Positions 1,657 to 8,880 of a stretch of 64,000 nucleotides of DNA are shown in pieces. The first letter of the stretch is position 1. Each line of letters starts with the position of its first letter. The translations under genes and the position numbers were made by a program. The DNA comes from a bacterium (lineage in GTDB: Bacteria; Zixibacteria; MSB-5A5; WJJR01), in contig JAKAKI010000072.1 of assembly GCA_021813505.1 (NCBI GenBank), positions 1-64,000 of the forward strand, given 5' to 3'. The notes under the pieces are model-generated. The model had not been told where the DNA came from and ran no database searches. It worked only from the letters and a program-made list of their open reading frames with translations.

Positions 1657-1685
1657 TTGCTTTTCGGCGGATGACCAGGTATAAT
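1657..1685 (+). promoter_or_regulatory. Sigma-70-type promoter of the his operon
   Basis: A -35 box TTGCTT (1657-1662) and a perfect -10 box TATAAT (1680-1685) are separated by 17 bp. Transcription would start near 1692, about 20 nt before the leader-peptide start codon and about 140 nt before the attenuator hairpin. Confidence 0.8.
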
Positions 1686-1713
1686 ACTCGTGATTGGACC
1701 AGGAATTCGAGCA

Positions 1714-1806
1714 ATGAAGAAGATCAACACCACAGACTACCGTCAGAACCACCTGCATCATGGGCATCATCACCACGATGAAGGTGGCGCGGTTTGTTCT
1801 GGGTGA
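1714..1806 (+). CDS. hisL: Histidine operon leader peptide
   Basis: This 30-codon frame has ATG at 1714, an AGGA ribosome site at 1701-1704 and TGA at 1804-1806. Residues 13-21 read HLHHGHHHH, i.e. seven histidine codons in nine. It lies between a strong promoter and a terminator hairpin directly upstream of hisG, which is the classic layout of transcription attenuation: when charged histidyl-tRNA is scarce the ribosome stalls on the His run and the terminator is not formed. CCAC (1773-1776) can pair with GTGG (1784-1787), and GGTGG (1783-1787) can pair with CCGCC (1837-1841) in the terminator's 5' arm, giving mutually exclusive structures. The identification rests on composition and position; leader peptides have no conserved sequence. 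Confidence 0.9.
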   Translation: MKKINTTDYRQNHLHHGHHHHDEGGAVCSG

Positions 1807-1832
1807 CAGATAGAAGGTCAAGAATCCGGAAG

Positions 1833-1861
1833 GGCCCCGCCGCGAACTACGGGGCCTTTTT
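1833..1861 (+). terminator. his attenuator terminator hairpin
   Basis: GGCCCCG (1833-1839) pairs with CGGGGCC (1850-1856) around a 10-nt loop and is followed at once by five T residues (1857-1861). This is a Rho-independent terminator 27 nt after the leader-peptide stop and 40 nt before hisG, fitting the role of attenuator. The 5' arm overlaps CCGCC, which could pair with the end of the leader reading frame to make the antiterminator. Confidence 0.88.
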
Positions 1862-1900
1862 CATTTGGTGATCCAGGTATCGGTCGAGGAAAGGGATGAG

Positions 1901-2761
1901 ATGCCACAGACTCTCAAAATAGTGCTGCCGAAAGGCCACCTCGAAGAAAAGGTCATCAACCTCCTCGAACGAATCGGGATGGGGTTCAAGTTCAACAGCC
2001 GTTCCTACCGGCCCATGTGCGGTGACTCGGAAATCGAAGCCAAAATGCTCAAGCCGCAGAATATTCCCGCCCTGGTCGCACTCGGGCGTCATGACTGTGG
2101 CTTCACCGGCCATGATTGGGTTGTCGAGGAGCGCGCGGACGTGGTCGAGCTGCTCGATCTTGGTTTTGATTCAGTGCGTATCGTCGTCGCCGGTCCTGAA
2201 GACTCGATAGGCGTGTCCGATCGGGAGGGACGGCCGCTGGTGATTGCCTCGGAATATGAGCGAATCACCGCGGAGTATATCGAGCGCAGCAAGCTGGACG
2301 CGGTCTTCATTCGCACTTACGGCGCAACCGAAGTACTGCCTCCGGAGGATGCGGACCTGATTGTCGACAACATGTCCAGCGGCTCCACCCTGCACTCCCA
2401 CCGCCTCGCCGTTGTTGAGGAGTTGATGGCCTCATCGACGCGGTTTGTCGCAAGCCCCGAGGCGCTCGCCGATCCCTGGAAGAAGGAAAAATTGGATGAG
2501 ATGTGCATGCTGATGGCGAGCACGCTCAGAGCGGAGGAGAAGGTGCTCCTGGAGATGAATGCCCCCCTCGAATGCTTTGAACGACTCATCAAAGATCTCC
2601 CCTGTATGCGCGCCCCCACGGTTTCTCCACTATACAATGGGGAGGGTTACGCGGTGAAGATTGCGGTGCCCGCGGGCGATGTGCCGAGATTGATTCCACG
2701 GCTTGTGGCGGCAGGGGCAAGGGACATACTCGAATACCGGCTCGAGAAGATAGTGGTGTAA
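1901..2761 (+). CDS. hisG: ATP phosphoribosyltransferase, long form
   Basis: HisG catalyses the committed step of histidine synthesis, joining ATP and PRPP. The 286-residue protein starts MPQTLKIVLPKGHLEEKV and has the PRPP-binding stretch ADLIVDNMSSGSTL near residue 160. Its length and C-terminal segment (residues about 210-286, ending ILEYRLEKIVV) indicate the long form with the ACT-like regulatory domain, which is feedback-inhibited by histidine and does not need HisZ. ATG 1901 is chosen over upstream in-frame TTG/GTG codons because GAGGAAAGGG lies 6-15 nt before it and the upstream codons sit in the attenuator's T-tract. It is the first enzyme gene after the attenuator. Confidence 0.96.
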   Translation: MPQTLKIVLPKGHLEEKVINLLERIGMGFKFNSRSYRPMCGDSEIEAKMLKPQNIPALVALGRHDCGFTGHDWVVEERADVVELLDLGFDSVRIVVAGPEDSIGVSDREGRPLVIASEYERITAEYIERSKLDAVFIRTYGATEVLPPEDADLIVDNMSSGSTLHSHRLAVVEELMASSTRFVASPEALADPWKKEKLDEMCMLMASTLRAEEKVLLEMNAPLECFERLIKDLPCMRAPTVSPLYNGEGYAVKIAVPAGDVPRLIPRLVAAGARDILEYRLEKIVV

Positions 2762-2794
2762 CCCCGGGTGAAAGGCAGCCGAGAGGGAAAGCTT

Positions 2795-4477
2795 ATGATC
2801 AAGGCCAGGACCGCAGTCGAGAACATGTCTGCCTATCTGCCTCCCCTGGAGGGGCGGCGCGGATTGGTCCGACTAGACTTCAATGAGAACACGGAGGGAT
2901 TCCCGTGGGCGTCACCTGGCCTGCCGGTGGAACTTGTTGCCACTTACCCCGAGTACGGCCAGTGCGAAAGGTCATTGGCGGAATACTGGAATCTGGGAAC
3001 AGAGAACATTCTACTGACCGATGGCAGCGATGAGGGGCTGCTCGTCGTCGCTCTTACATTCATCGAGCCCGGCACTGGTCGGGCGGTTATCACCCGTCCC
3101 ACCTTCGCGCTGATCCGTCAGTATCTGCAATTGGCCGGCGCGCAGTTGATCGAGGTGCCGCTAACCGGATCATTGGAATTCGACCATGACGGGATCGCCG
3201 CAGTGCTGGAAGGCACGAACATAGCCTTTTTCGCCTCGCCAGATAATCCAACCGGCGCGGTGCTGGATCAGGACTGCGTCATCAACTGGTGTCGGAATTG
3301 GCCGGACACGCTGTTCGTCATCGACGAGGCCTACGCTGAATACACCGGCCGGACCCTGGTTCCGCTGGTTCGCCAGTTGGAGAACCTGATCGTTCTGCGC
3401 AGTTTCTCCAAGGCGTGGGGCATGGCGGGGTTGCGGCTCGGCGCCGCGACTGGCTCTAAGCGATTGATCGACTACATGCGGCGTGTTCGCTCTCCTTATT
3501 CCGTTAATAGCGCGGCGGTGACAACCGTGATGAACCTGCTGCGACGTTCCGGCGAAATCCATGCGGCCGCACGGGAGACGATGGCCCGAAAGAAATGGCT
3601 GACCAACGAAGTTCAACGGCGCGGGTATCGAGTTCATAGCGGTGCGGCCAACTTCTTCCTCGTCGGGGTCGGCGCCGGCGCCCAGTCGTGGTGCGACTAC
3701 TGTCGCCGGCACGGCGTGCTGGTGCGCGACCGCTCGTCGATGCCGGCGCTGTCAGGCATGGTGCGGGTCTCGGCGGGGACTGACAGGGAGAATCGCATCT
3801 TCCTGGATGCTCTTGACGCCTACCGTCACTCGCACGCATTGATCTTCGACCTCGATGATACGCTGGTGGATTGTTCGCAAAGTTACGCGAGGATTGTGGC
3901 GGAGTTGGTCAGTTGCCATTCGGATGAGCCTCTGCGCGTCGGCGAGTTGAACGCGCTTCGAGCGGAGGGAGGCTTCAATGATGAATGGGATGCGACACAG
4001 GAGTTGCTCAGACGCCGCGGAGTGGCCGTCACCATTCAGGAGATCGCGCGTGAAGGACAATCCTGTTATCTCGGAATCGCCGGTGAAAACGAGAGGTGGA
4101 GCTTGAGCGACGAAGTCCTGGCGCAACTTAAGTTGCGATACCGTCTTCTGGTGCTCACTGGGCGGACTCGTGCGGAGTATGAACCGGTTTGGGGGAAATT
4201 CGCCGGCTCACGCTTTGAGCACGTTTGGTGCCGCGACGATTTTGATGGACTGCGGCCGAAGCCGGCGCCCGACATGCTACTGAGCGTCCTCAACCAATCG
4301 CAAGTCGAGAGTGCGATCTACATCGGTAATTCAGTTGACGACATGCGGGCTGCCATCGAGGCCGGGCTTGGCCGGATCGCGATACGGTCCACAACGCCTG
4401 ATGCAGCCCTGCGCGATGCAGGGGCGGAGTACATCCTCGACGATGTCAACAGTCTGCGAGAGGTGATCGCCATATGA
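2795..4477 (+). CDS. hisC: Histidinol-phosphate aminotransferase fused to a HAD phosphatase domain
   Basis: Residues about 1-345 are a fold-type I PLP aminotransferase of the HisC family (FFASPDNPTGAV, then SFSKAWGMAG with the PLP lysine). Residues about 348-560 are a complete HAD hydrolase: motif I DLDDTLVD, motif II VLTGRT, motif IV GNSVDDM, with a small cap between. The neighbouring HisB has only the dehydratase domain and no other histidinol-phosphatase is visible in this operon, so the HAD half is the obvious candidate for histidinol-phosphate dephosphorylation, which would put two consecutive steps in one polypeptide. That substrate is inferred. The start at 2795 has GAGAGGG at 2781-2787. 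The stop overlaps hisB by ATGA. Confidence 0.92.
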   Translation: MIKARTAVENMSAYLPPLEGRRGLVRLDFNENTEGFPWASPGLPVELVATYPEYGQCERSLAEYWNLGTENILLTDGSDEGLLVVALTFIEPGTGRAVITRPTFALIRQYLQLAGAQLIEVPLTGSLEFDHDGIAAVLEGTNIAFFASPDNPTGAVLDQDCVINWCRNWPDTLFVIDEAYAEYTGRTLVPLVRQLENLIVLRSFSKAWGMAGLRLGAATGSKRLIDYMRRVRSPYSVNSAAVTTVMNLLRRSGEIHAAARETMARKKWLTNEVQRRGYRVHSGAANFFLVGVGAGAQSWCDYCRRHGVLVRDRSSMPALSGMVRVSAGTDRENRIFLDALDAYRHSHALIFDLDDTLVDCSQSYARIVAELVSCHSDEPLRVGELNALRAEGGFNDEWDATQELLRRRGVAVTIQEIAREGQSCYLGIAGENERWSLSDEVLAQLKLRYRLLVLTGRTRAEYEPVWGKFAGSRFEHVWCRDDFDGLRPKPAPDMLLSVLNQSQVESAIYIGNSVDDMRAAIEAGLGRIAIRSTTPDAALRDAGAEYILDDVNSLREVIAI

Positions 4478-5064
4478 TGATACGTTCGGCAACGGTGACG
4501 CGTGATTCACGAGAGACGCAGATCACGGCGACGCTCGATCTCGACAAGTCCGGAGACGTCAGTGTCGCCACTGGCCTTCCCTTTCTAGATCACATGCTGG
4601 GGGCATGGGCCTGCCACGGTGGCTTCGGTCTTCAACTCCGTGCCCGGGGCGATCTGGACGTGGATCCACACCATTTGGTCGAAGATTGCGGGATTGTACT
4701 GGGACGGGTTATTGCCGCAGCCCTGGCAGAGTGCGGCCCAATCCGCCGTGCGGGATTCTACTCGTTTCCAATGGACGGCAGTTTGGCCAATGTGGCAATC
4801 GACCTATGTGGGCGTCCCAATCTGGTCTGGAATGTGCCGCTCATAGGTCGGTGCCTGGGCGATCTCGATCCGTTCCTCCTGAAAGATTTTTTCAAGTCTC
4901 TCTGCGACAATCTGCGTGCAACTGTACACGTCAACGTTCCCTACGGAGACAATGATCACCACATGCTCGAGGCGATCTTCAAGGCGTTCGGGCGCAGCTT
5001 GCAGCAGGCAGTTCAGCCCGTGGACGGCGACGTGATGAGCACCAAGGGGGTTATCGATGGTTGA
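4474..5064 (+). CDS. hisB: Imidazoleglycerol-phosphate dehydratase
   Basis: The 196-residue, monofunctional HisB dehydrates imidazoleglycerol phosphate to imidazoleacetol phosphate. The manganese-binding histidine clusters are intact: FLDHMLG, then DPHHLVEDCGI near residue 65 and DNDHHMLEAIFKAFG near residue 165. The N-terminal HAD phosphatase of enterobacterial HisB is absent, which matches the HAD domain carried on HisC here. The gene starts inside the hisC stop (ATGA) and overlaps hisH by 8 bp, so translation is probably coupled. Confidence 0.97.
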   Translation: MMIRSATVTRDSRETQITATLDLDKSGDVSVATGLPFLDHMLGAWACHGGFGLQLRARGDLDVDPHHLVEDCGIVLGRVIAAALAECGPIRRAGFYSFPMDGSLANVAIDLCGRPNLVWNVPLIGRCLGDLDPFLLKDFFKSLCDNLRATVHVNVPYGDNDHHMLEAIFKAFGRSLQQAVQPVDGDVMSTKGVIDG

Positions 5065-5641
5065 GTTGATCAACTTCAGCGGCGGGAACCTTGGAAGCAT
5101 ACGACGTGCTCTGGAGCGGCTGGATATTTCCTACAAGATTGCAGCGAGCGCCGGAGAGCTGACCGGTGATCGCGGCATCATACTACCGGGTGTCGGGTCC
5201 TTTGGGGCGGCAATGGCGGCTATTGAGCGCGTGGGACTGAAGCAGCGTGTGAGCGACGCGGTCCGCGGGGGCAGTCCATACCTGGGCATCTGTATCGGGA
5301 TGCAATTGCTGTTTCGGACTAGTGAGGAAGCTCCCGATGTCGCCGGGCTGGGACTCATTGACGGGGAGGTTCTGCGCTTCAAAACGGGCAAAGTGCCGCA
5401 GATTGGATGGAATCGTATTGAACCTCTGGGTGCAGGATCGCGCACACCAGGTTTCGTCTATTTCGTGAACTCGTACTACTGCCGTCCAGTCGATCAGACG
5501 CTGACGACATTCCAGGCGGAGTATCACATCTCGTTTTGCGCTGCGCTGCGCCGCGGAAACATCACTGCGTATCAATTTCATCCTGAGCGAAGCGGCGAAT
5601 TTGGAAGCCAATTGCTAAAAGAGTGGTGCGATGATCTGTAA
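5057..5641 (+). CDS. hisH: Imidazole glycerol phosphate synthase, glutaminase subunit
   Basis: This class I glutamine amidotransferase supplies ammonia to HisF. The nucleophile elbow GICIGMQLLF near residue 80 carries the catalytic Cys, and the partner His-Glu pair is in YQFHPERSG near residue 175. At 194 residues it has the normal length. It overlaps hisB (8 bp) and hisF (11 bp), consistent with stoichiometric production of the HisH-HisF heterodimer. Confidence 0.97.
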   Translation: MVELINFSGGNLGSIRRALERLDISYKIAASAGELTGDRGIILPGVGSFGAAMAAIERVGLKQRVSDAVRGGSPYLGICIGMQLLFRTSEEAPDVAGLGLIDGEVLRFKTGKVPQIGWNRIEPLGAGSRTPGFVYFVNSYYCRPVDQTLTTFQAEYHISFCAALRRGNITAYQFHPERSGEFGSQLLKEWCDDL

Positions 5642-6392
5642 GCGAATCATTCCCTGCCTCGACATTGACAATGGCCGCGTTGTCAAAGGCGTGAATTTCG
5701 GGCAGTTGCGTAATGTCGGCGACCCAGTCGAACTCGCGCGGTTCTATCAGGATGAAGGAGCAGACGAGCTGGTGTTTCTGGACATCTCCGCGACTTTCGA
5801 GGAGCGACAGACCGTGTTTGACGTTGTTCAAAGAGTCGCCCGAGCACTGATGATCCCATTCACGGTAGGAGGAGGAGTGAGTTCGATCGGACAGGTCAAA
5901 CATCTGCTGGAGTCCGGCGCCGACAAGGTGACCGTGAATACCGCCGCAGTCGCAAATCCTGAATTAATTGCCGAGATCGCTGCTGAATGCGGAAGTCAGT
6001 GCTGCGTTCTCGCCGTCGATGCGCGGCGGCGCAGTGCGGACCGGCGCTGGGAAGTCCTGACGCACGGCGGTCGTCGCGCAGCCGGGCTTGATGCCGTGGA
6101 TTGGTGCCATCAGGCGGTTGAGCGCGGGGCCGGCGAAATTCTACTGACGTCCTGGGATCGGGACGGAACACGCTTAGGGTTCGATCTGGAACTCACTGCC
6201 GCGATCTCGGCGACCGTGGGCGTTCCGGTGATCGCCTCCGGTGGGGCAGGCGGCGCCGATGATTTTGTCTCGGTGCTGACAATCGGCATGGCCGACGCTG
6301 CCCTGGCAGCCAGCATCTTTCATGACCGTGACTGGCGTATCTCAGATCTGAAGCATGTGCTGAATGAGGAAGGAATTCCGGTGCGCCTATGA
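5631..6392 (+). CDS. hisF: Imidazole glycerol phosphate synthase, cyclase subunit
   Basis: This (beta/alpha)8 barrel of 253 residues converts PRFAR and ammonia into IGP and AICAR. The two catalytic Asp positions are visible in [14 protein letters not shown] (residue about 11) and [13 protein letters not shown] (residue about 170 region of the barrel), with the phosphate-binding glycines in VGGGVSS and ASGGAGG. It starts within the hisH end and its stop overlaps the next start by ATGA. Confidence 0.97.
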
Positions 6393-7612
6393 TTATTCCG
6401 AGCATCGATCTTGCGGATGGCAAGGCCGTCCAACTCAGGCAAGGTCGCGACCTGGTTCTGATTTCCAGGCGTGATCCGGTGGATTTGGCCCGGGAATATA
6501 ACCGCTACGGCGAAGTTGCAGTCATCGATATTGACGCCGCACGTGGAACGGGCGACAATCTCGAGTTGATTCGCCGCATTTGCCGCGTGGCACGGGCGAG
6601 GGTGGGAGGCGGCATCCGCACTATCGAGAGGGCGCGGCAGGTCCTGCGGGCAGGGGCGCACCGCATCATCATCGGTACAGCGGCCGAGCCGGGGCTCCTC
6701 AGCAAGCTTCCGTCTCAGTATGTCATCGTCGCACTCGACCACCGTAACGGTGAAGTGGTCGACCAGGCTTGGACCAATAACACCGGCGAGTCCGTTTTCC
6801 AGCGGGCGGCACGCCTCTCGCCCTACTGCGGGGGTTTCCTCTGCACATTTGTCGATAATGAAGGCACAATGAGGGGGATAGACCCATCCGTAGCAGACAA
6901 ATTCAAGAGTCAATTGAATCATCCGTTGACGGTCGCCGGAGGAGTCGCAGGCACGTCGGACGTCGTATCGCTGCTCCGGTTCGGCGTTGATGTGCAGGTC
7001 GGAATGGCTCTTTACACAGAGCAACTGGACCTGGCCGAATGCGTCGTCCAGTCTATAGACTTTGGAAGAAAGCCGCTGGTCCCGACGATCGTCCAGAACA
7101 CCGGCGGGCAGGTATTGATGCTGGCTCATAGCAGTCCGGAATCGTTGCGGCTGGCGTTGCGTGAGGGTCGCGGAGTTTACTTCAGCCGCTCCCGGGGGTC
7201 CATCTGGACCAAAGGAATGACCTCCGGGAACGCACAGGAATTGATATCGTGCCGGGCAGACTGTGATCGCGACACGCTTCTGTTCACGGTCCGCCAGACA
7301 GGCGTCGCGTGTCACGAGGGATCGTACAGTTGCTTCGGTGACCGAACCCATTCTCTGCCGCTGCTATTCGAACTCTTGGGGCAGCGAAAACGCGAGATGC
7401 CCGCAGAATCATACTCGGTGCACTACTTCAAGGATCGATCGCGGCTCTTGCGGAAGATCATGGAAGAAGCCTACGAGGTGACCACGGCAAAAGGTCGGGC
7501 GGAACACGTGTGGGAAATGGCCGATCTTCTGTACTTCCTCAGTCTGCTCGCTGTGGATGAGGGGATCGAGTGGCAGGAGATCATCGACGAGTTGCGCGGG
7601 CGGCAAAGATGA
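6389..7612 (+). CDS. hisA: Trifunctional HisA-HisI-HisE fusion
   Basis: Three enzymes form one 407-residue chain. Residues about 1-228 are HisA (ProFAR isomerase), with the catalytic Asp in IPSIDLADGKAVQL and a second in VALDHRNGEVV. Residues about 230-320 are HisI (PRA-CH cyclohydrolase), recognisable from FSRSRGSIWTKG, RADCDRDTLL and the zinc-binding end CHEGSYSCF. Residues about 325-407 are HisE (PRA-PH pyrophosphohydrolase), from LLRKIMEEAYEVTTA and the EMADLLYFL motif. HisI-HisE fusion is common; placing HisA in front of it is not. The chain covers three consecutive reactions (steps 2-4). Both ends overlap neighbours by ATGA. Confidence 0.95.
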   Translation: MIIPSIDLADGKAVQLRQGRDLVLISRRDPVDLAREYNRYGEVAVIDIDAARGTGDNLELIRRICRVARARVGGGIRTIERARQVLRAGAHRIIIGTAAEPGLLSKLPSQYVIVALDHRNGEVVDQAWTNNTGESVFQRAARLSPYCGGFLCTFVDNEGTMRGIDPSVADKFKSQLNHPLTVAGGVAGTSDVVSLLRFGVDVQVGMALYTEQLDLAECVVQSIDFGRKPLVPTIVQNTGGQVLMLAHSSPESLRLALREGRGVYFSRSRGSIWTKGMTSGNAQELISCRADCDRDTLLFTVRQTGVACHEGSYSCFGDRTHSLPLLFELLGQRKREMPAESYSVHYFKDRSRLLRKIMEEAYEVTTAKGRAEHVWEMADLLYFLSLLAVDEGIEWQEIIDELRGRQR

Positions 7613-8880
7613 GAATTCTCGAAGGGCACGAGGCTGGAGACGTTCTGGCCCGGTATGCGGGAGGTCCGACCTGGCGGCGCGCCAGTGATTCGATTCTTCA
7701 AGAACGAGTGGACGGCATCCTGAGTCGAGTTCGAGACGGTGGTGACAGTGCCGTCCGCGAGCTGGCTTTGCAATTCGGAGACGAACCTCCGGAACGTTTC
7801 GAACTGGATCGGGACAGCATTGCTGCCGCATGTGCTCGAGTGTCCTGGGAGACCCGCGGCATCATAGAGCGTGCTGCTGAGAATATCGCGACGGTCGCCC
7901 GCGCCGTCGCGGACCTGATTAAACCAGTGCGGGTAGAGCAGGATGGCTTCGTGGTTGGTGTGGAATTCCGCCCCGTGGAATGTGTCGGATGCTACGTTCC
8001 CGGCGGGCGGTTTCCGCTTCCATCAACCGCGCTCATGACCGCCATCACAGCTCGGGTGGCTGGTGTGCGGGACATTTGCATCGTTTCGCCACGCCTGACT
8101 GACGAGGTCGTCTATGCCGGCACTCTGGCCGGAGTATCGCACTTCTACCGCCTGGGCGGAGCACAGGCCATTGCGGCACTCGCATTTGGCACGGAATCGA
8201 TACCACGCGTGGATATGATCGTGGGTCCGGGCAATACCTACGTGACGGAAGCCAAGCGGCAGTTGCAGGGAACAGTTGGAATTGATCTGCTCGCGGGGCC
8301 AAGCGAGATTGCCATCATCGCTGATGCGACTGCTAATCCGTGCTGGGTCGCACTTGACATGGCCGCGCAGCTGGAGCACGATCCTTTGTCCCGTGCTTTC
8401 TTGTTTACGACCTCCCGCAAGGCTGCGGAGGAAACTGTCCAACAACTGGCATCCCTCTGGTCCAATCATGATTTGCCCGGGAATCACGATGCGAGTTCAG
8501 CCGGAGTGTTCATCGCAGTCTTCAGCAACCTGTCCGACTGTGTCGCCGCCTCGGATATGATCGCTCCTGAGCATTTGCACCTGCATCTCTCGCAGCCGGC
8601 CGCTTTGGAGCGCCAGCCACGGTACTACGGAGCGCTCTTCATCGGGTACCATTCAACGGTGCCGTTCGGGGATTACATGGCCGGACCGAACCACACGTTA
8701 CCTACAGGCGGGTCTGCGCGATTTTCCGGTGCTCTAAGTCCGCTGAGTTTCCTGCGGGCACAGAACTTTGTCGAGGTTTGCCGTTTGGACCGTCAGGCAG
8801 CATTACGCACGTTCGGCTTCGCCGAGCTCGAGGGACTTTCCATGCACGCCGCCGCAGTACGGGCCAGGGTGGAAACCTGA
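7609..8880 (+). CDS. hisD: Histidinol dehydrogenase
   Basis: This 423-residue zinc enzyme oxidises histidinol to histidine with two NAD+. The family signatures are clear: GPGNTYVTEAKRQLQG, DLLAGPSEIAIIAD, QLEHDPLSRA, APEHLHLHL and GPNHTLPTGGSARF. ATG 7609 overlaps the preceding stop as ATGA; an upstream in-frame start is less likely. It is the last gene of the operon, and with it all ten steps of the pathway are represented, assuming the HAD domain on HisC is the phosphatase. Prophage-derived DNA begins about 20 bp after the stop. Confidence 0.97.
   Translation: MRILEGHEAGDVLARYAGGPTWRRASDSILQERVDGILSRVRDGGDSAVRELALQFGDEPPERFELDRDSIAAACARVSWETRGIIERAAENIATVARAVADLIKPVRVEQDGFVVGVEFRPVECVGCYVPGGRFPLPSTALMTAITARVAGVRDICIVSPRLTDEVVYAGTLAGVSHFYRLGGAQAIAALAFGTESIPRVDMIVGPGNTYVTEAKRQLQGTVGIDLLAGPSEIAIIADATANPCWVALDMAAQLEHDPLSRAFLFTTSRKAAEETVQQLASLWSNHDLPGNHDASSAGVFIAVFSNLSDCVAASDMIAPEHLHLHLSQPAALERQPRYYGALFIGYHSTVPFGDYMAGPNHTLPTGGSARFSGALSPLSFLRAQNFVEVCRLDRQAALRTFGFAELEGLSMHAAAVRARVET

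Follow-up and report, generated by a model that had tools for sequence, protein, structure and literature searches.

A predicted histidine attenuator ahead of a Zixibacteria his operon, and His and Trp leader peptides in further bacteria

The his operon and its leader region

The window analysed here (the whole stretch of 64,000 nucleotides, positions 1 to 64,000 of contig JAKAKI010000072.1 in the Zixibacteria assembly GCA_021813505.1) contains an operon at 1901-8880 that encodes, by Pfam, the complete histidine pathway with all ten activities. The operon is preceded by a short open reading frame rich in histidine codons and by several predicted RNA structures. The features of the locus are as follows.

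1657..1685, + strand: promoter, with -35 TTGCTT at 1657-1662, a 17-bp spacer and -10 TATAAT at 1680-1685 (read from the sequence)
1701..1704, + strand: AGGA, Shine-Dalgarno-like, with the leader ATG 9 nt further on (read from the sequence)
1714..1806, + strand: leader peptide gene MKKINTTDYRQNHLHHGHHHHDEGGAVCSG, 30 codons, 7 His (sequence and the homologue MRKLNTMDCKHNHPHHGHHCHGEGGAVYSG in the relative L006)
1749..1787, + strand: protector hairpin, segment 1:2, CCACCU:AGGUGG, expected if the leader is untranslated (folding)
1750..1776, + strand: His cluster HLHHGHHHH, the candidate stall codons (read from the sequence)
1784..1804, + strand: antiterminator 5' arm, segment 2, within the last leader codons (folding)
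1824..1843, + strand: antiterminator 3' arm, segment 3, which shares bases with the 5' arm of the terminator (folding)
1833..1861, + strand: intrinsic terminator, segment 3:4, GGCCCCG / CGGGGCC with a U-tract (sequence and folding)
1901..2761, + strand: hisG, long form (Pfam HisG and HisG_C)
2795..4477, + strand: hisC fused to a HAD phosphatase domain (Pfam Aminotran_1_2 and HAD)
4474..5064, + strand: hisB, IGPD (Pfam)
5057..5641, + strand: hisH (Pfam GATase and operon context)
5631..6392, + strand: hisF (Pfam His_biosynth and sequence)
6389..7612, + strand: hisA-hisI-hisE fusion (Pfam His_biosynth, PRA-CH and PRA-PH)
7570..8880, + strand: hisD, start approximate (Pfam Histidinol_dh)

The operon has two unusual gene fusions, namely hisC-HAD (2795-4477) and hisA-hisI-hisE (6389-7612). 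The HAD domain is the probable histidinol-phosphate phosphatase, a substrate that we infer; in another Zixibacteria genome, G031, the HAD gene is separate and lies between hisC and hisB. At the upstream end of the window, a palindromic MITE-like element of ~122 bp (534-666; ends GTTGAAAAACC/GGTTTTTCAAC, inner arms 573-596 and 623-646) splits a DDE_Tnp_1_4 transposase gene (16-1318) and is present in ~40 copies in the genome.

The leader gene, which is too short for routine annotation, starts with the ATG at 1714 and ends with the TGA at 1804-1806, 94 nt before the hisG start at 1901. Histidine occupies codons 13, 15, 16 and 18-21, and all elements of the leader frame described in the first-pass annotation (30 codons, HLHHGHHHH, seven His) are present in the sequence. 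The His-cluster pattern CAYCAYNNNCAYCAYCAYCAY occurs at two sites in the 3.9-Mb genome, one of which is the leader; a reversed-pattern control has no sites. The promoter had been called strong, which holds for the perfect -10 TATAAT but not for the weak -35, where TTGCTT shares just 3 of its 6 bases with the consensus. A simple promoter/terminator scan made no calls in the window, the -35 being weak and the terminator loop outside the limits of the scan; the same scan called the homologous promoter of L006 (TTGCCT-17-TATATT), which is 68% identical to the one here.

Mutually exclusive RNA folds

The GC-rich terminator noted ahead of hisG is indeed there, with a stem of seven G-C pairs (1833-1839 with 1850-1856), a 10-nt loop and a U-run. 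The scan missed it because this loop exceeds the limit of 3-8 nt, and direct folding was used instead, giving -18.8 to -19.6 kcal/mol (z -2.54). When the region through the stop codon is masked, as if by a ribosome, the terminator is the sole fold. The antiterminator was folded from the RNA that exists before synthesis of the terminator 3' arm, a ribosome being placed at the first His of HHHH. It forms a single helix stack, in which 1784-1789, 1791-1794 and 1797-1804 pair with 1838-1843, 1833-1836 and 1824-1831, respectively, at -27.5 kcal/mol (z -2.66; 1 of 200 shuffles as stable). This fold consumes the terminator 5' arm, so that the two pairings are mutually exclusive. In the protector hairpin, 1749-1754 pairs with 1782-1787 (-19.2 kcal/mol for 1745-1795, z -2.44). 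Thus, folding of the leader region, the check suggested for the exclusive pairings, produced all three structures. With a ribosome stalled at the last His codon, covering part of segment 2, the fold, which then starts from 1790, is weaker (-15.9 kcal/mol), so the effect should depend chiefly on stalls at the His codons further upstream.

Searches with Rfam covariance models detected no T-box in the window or around the leader. The His_leader family (RF00514) had no matches at the gathering score in the window and none to E 10 around the leader. Weak hits to Thr_leader and ctRNA, far below the gathering scores, reflect the generic leader-plus-terminator shape and were rejected.

Conservation of the RNA arms in the closest relative

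The nearest relative that bears the operon is L006 (genome G006), a Candidatus Zixiibacteriota MAG of the same family whose HisG is 89% identical to the one in the window; this agrees with the first-pass impression of a candidate-phylum genome. Between the two loci, segment 2 is 93% identical (over 1777-1804), segment 3 is 95% identical, and the terminator 3' arm with the U-tract is 100% identical. The loop between the antiterminator arms is only 37% identical, and the first 12 leader codons and the hisG start are 67% and 77% identical, respectively. Conserved paired arms alongside a diverging loop are the pattern that selection on an RNA structure would be expected to leave. Compensatory changes are almost absent from this one close comparison, in which the arms are near-identical.

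Proposed mechanism

The sequence and the comparisons show the leader, the terminator, the mutually exclusive pairings, the conservation in the relative and the recurrence described below. The element is very probably a ribosome-mediated transcription attenuator of the hisL type, for which we infer the following course of events, from the transcription start through leader translation and stalling to the response to histidine. Transcription would begin near 1692, and the leader would be translated while the RNA is being made. With plentiful charged tRNA-His, the ribosome would reach the stop codon at 1804-1806 and cover segment 2 (1784-1804), and RNA polymerase would then halt at the terminator (1833-1861). 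With charged tRNA-His scarce, the ribosome would stall on the His cluster, leaving segment 2 to pair with segment 3 (1824-1843); the terminator 5' arm would thereby be occupied and the polymerase would continue into the his operon. If the leader were not translated at all, the hairpin at 1749-1787 would sequester the start of segment 2 and termination would be favoured.

His leaders and the rarity of his genes in Zixibacteria

HisG is encoded in 7 of the 132 genomes of the class (a phylum-wide search gave the same set) and HisB in 4 of 132, versus 72 of 132 for the TrpE N-terminal domain, so histidine synthesis by the standard route appears to be absent from most of the phylum. The full his operon was seen only in the genome analysed here (G000), G006, G031 and G034. 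Four of the six other Zixibacteria hisG genes are preceded by a His leader and a terminator, those of G006, G034 (MKRMTCQTTHHHHHHGGAPLENRSVG), G078 (MKTITDINAATAISTCQHHHHHHTTPRVGM) and G126 (MVIEKRTSIHHHEFLPPDRGGRI); in G078, hisG is followed by genes other than his genes, and the contig of G126 spans only 3.2 kb. G031 has kept the his operon, but its leader ends in LHHN, with two His, and has no clear terminator. The comparison with relatives proposed in the first-pass annotation therefore came out in favour of a recurrent His leader and terminator in G006, G034, G078 and G126, and against it in G031. No His leader was found upstream of the hisG of G011, a lone, very divergent hisG-like gene of 210 aa with no his neighbours (L020, G011:C235, ~7918-8550 on the reversed strand) that possibly has another function.

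In the HisG tree, the HisG proteins of the window and of G006 cluster with Melainabacteria (support 97/99), and the Zixibacteria HisG proteins fall into more than one group; the tree is small, with several long branches, and the joining of G011 and G126 is unreliable. Repeated horizontal acquisition of his genes is the simplest reading of this small tree. Since few Zixibacteria have his genes and this HisG clusters with Melainabacteria, operon and attenuator were probably acquired jointly, by horizontal transfer into this lineage.

His leaders in other phyla

His-rich short ORFs are also present upstream of hisG in Acidobacteria, Melainabacteria and Vampirovibrio loci. Among 17 loci, such an ORF precedes hisG on the sense strand in 14 and on the antisense strand in none; control amino acids (Trp, Cys, Arg, Leu and others) have no comparable strand bias in this set. 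Where labels are taken from the names of the central MAGs, His leaders were found at 5 of 6 and a further 15 of 17 Melainabacteria-class loci with long-form HisG (one antisense hit), at none of the 23 Melainabacteria-class loci with short-form HisG (L102-L124), and at 20 of 30 Bacteroidetes-phylum loci (13 with a terminator, none antisense). The surprise expressed in the first-pass annotation, that attenuation best known from proteobacteria should appear here, is accordingly weakened, His leaders upstream of hisG being common in several other phyla.

Three Acidobacteria loci (L009, L010 and L031) have His leaders with the common C-terminus AHRCVRA.R.M.GR.SR and no U-run terminator. A hairpin can be drawn in L010 (CGATGCG/CGCATCG) and in L009 (CGGTGCG/CGCACCG), or TGCGTCC can instead pair with a downstream GGACGCA. 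This arrangement suggests a different attenuator, perhaps translational or Rho-dependent.

In all 10 of 10 loci that combine a leader with a terminator, folding places every alternative partner of the terminator 5' arm within the footprint of a ribosome at the stop codon. The pairing summed over nine independent loci involves 56.9 bases, compared to 31.1 +/- 7.2 in shuffled sequences, and none of 300 shuffles scored as high; the locus in the window gives, on its own, a modest signal that 33 of 300 shuffles equal or exceed. The statistical strength of the pairing thus comes from the locus set and from L006 rather than from single loci. The histidine attenuator originally proposed for this locus is borne out by the conserved arms of L006, the recurrent His leaders in Zixibacteria and the consistent folds over the nine loci.

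Trp leaders in Zixibacteria

In a set of 50 Zixibacteria loci, trpE, or a dapF-like gene at the head of the trpE operon, is preceded in ~25 cases by a short ORF with clustered Trp codons (WWW, WWWW or NWNW) and a terminator, with 40-90 nt between the leader stop and the terminator. The trpE locus of the present genome (L073), with an NWNW leader, and that of its genus mate (L074) are among them. The formal count of Trp leaders is 26 sense and 0 antisense; at least one of these hits, in L046, falls within a gene and probably arose by chance. With Trp leaders and terminators at about half of the trpE loci, leader-peptide attenuation looks general in the phylum. The Trp-leader loci are L073-L092, L040, L041, L048, L049, L053, L056, L058, L065 and L067; in G108 (L077) and G110 (L078), two Trp leaders are arranged in tandem.

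Discussion

Several other explanations of the locus were weighed against transcription attenuation. In the first, which we regard as improbable, attenuation is translational, with the leader and its stalled ribosome altering how accessible the hisG ribosome-binding site is, the terminator being incidental. His leaders that lack a clear U-run terminator, in L009, L010 and L031 (Acidobacteria) and in G031, fit such a form, which may exist elsewhere; at the present locus, however, the terminator combines a stem of seven G-C pairs with a U-tract, L006 has an identical terminator 3' arm, and it is exactly the terminator 5' arm for which the antiterminator competes. The attenuator could also be a relic that arrived with the transferred operon and does not respond in its present host. 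Such a history would fit the scarcity of the operon in the class and the position of its HisG next to Melainabacteria, but across two genera conservation is higher in the RNA arms than at the hisG start, which points to selection after arrival, and the Trp leaders indicate that the host class employs the mechanism; a relic is accordingly very unlikely. More doubtful still, to the point of being hardly credible, is a functional small His-rich protein, for example a metal-binding one, followed by an ordinary terminator and by hisG only by accident: His-rich peptides can bind metals, but the peptides of other lineages have little in common beyond the His run, and the link with hisG recurs in several phyla with almost no antisense cases. 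A chance His run adjoining an unrelated terminator is refuted by the conservation in L006; moreover, only two such His clusters occur in 3.9 Mb.

Transcription attenuation of the hisL type has a close model in E. coli and Salmonella, where seven His codons likewise lie in a short leader, a terminator precedes hisG and the RNA adopts mutually exclusive folds. The E. coli hisL peptide (MTRVQFKHHHHHHHPD) is encoded 145 nt from hisG by 16 codons; the leader here, with 30 codons, is nearly twice as long, its His run is broken (HLHHGHHHH), its stop lies 94 nt from hisG, and the RNA has no Rfam His_leader match. The host also differs, belonging to an uncultured phylum, and so does the operon layout, with its hisC-HAD and hisA-IE fusions. 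Although predicted to work like hisL, the element is thus outside the Rfam His_leader sequence family. The E. coli trpL leader has the same parts, clustered regulatory codons, an antiterminator and a terminator, with Trp instead of His.

Leader-peptide systems were known in 2010 only from Proteobacteria and Actinobacteria, to which Firmicutes were then added (PMC2965389), and in 2016 cyanobacteria were described as lacking reliable data on such attenuators (PMC4833913). The trp attenuators of Corynebacterium and Streptomyces share the clustered regulatory codons, antiterminator and terminator, and differ in the amino acid and the operon (PMC1262725). His attenuators were assigned to Proteobacteria until three Firmicutes lineages were added in 2022 by prediction, namely the Bacillus cereus group, Peptostreptococcaceae and Erysipelotrichales (PMC9413887). 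These likewise combine, outside Proteobacteria, a His-codon leader, a terminator and an antiterminator upstream of his operons, but belong to another phylum, have 3-5 His codons in a row and differ in RNA sequence (PMC9413887). In the literature covered, there is little or no description of His or Trp leader attenuators in the phyla discussed here, and we found none of histidine regulation in Zixibacteria; an earlier prediction is possible, for instance in the comparative work of Lopatovskaya 2010, outside that literature. The mechanism itself is already known; what the present analysis adds is its spread over several phyla and the probable joint transfer of operon and regulator.

The locus probably reveals how histidine synthesis is controlled in an uncultured phylum; because so few genomes of that phylum have his genes, it also offers a clear example of an operon and its regulator that were probably transferred together. 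With the other loci taken into account, one isolated observation becomes a claim open to testing, that His and Trp leader attenuators exist in further phyla. On balance, we favour the view that leader-peptide attenuation is a general strategy of Zixibacteria, used widely for Trp and, for His, with rarely acquired operons, and that His leaders are a usual partner of long-form HisG in Bacteroidota, Cyanobacteriota (the Melainabacteria class), Acidobacteriota and Zixibacteria and are carried along in transfers of the operon. If this is true, the mechanism would have a much broader distribution, and possibly a greater age, than its description in proteobacteria implies.
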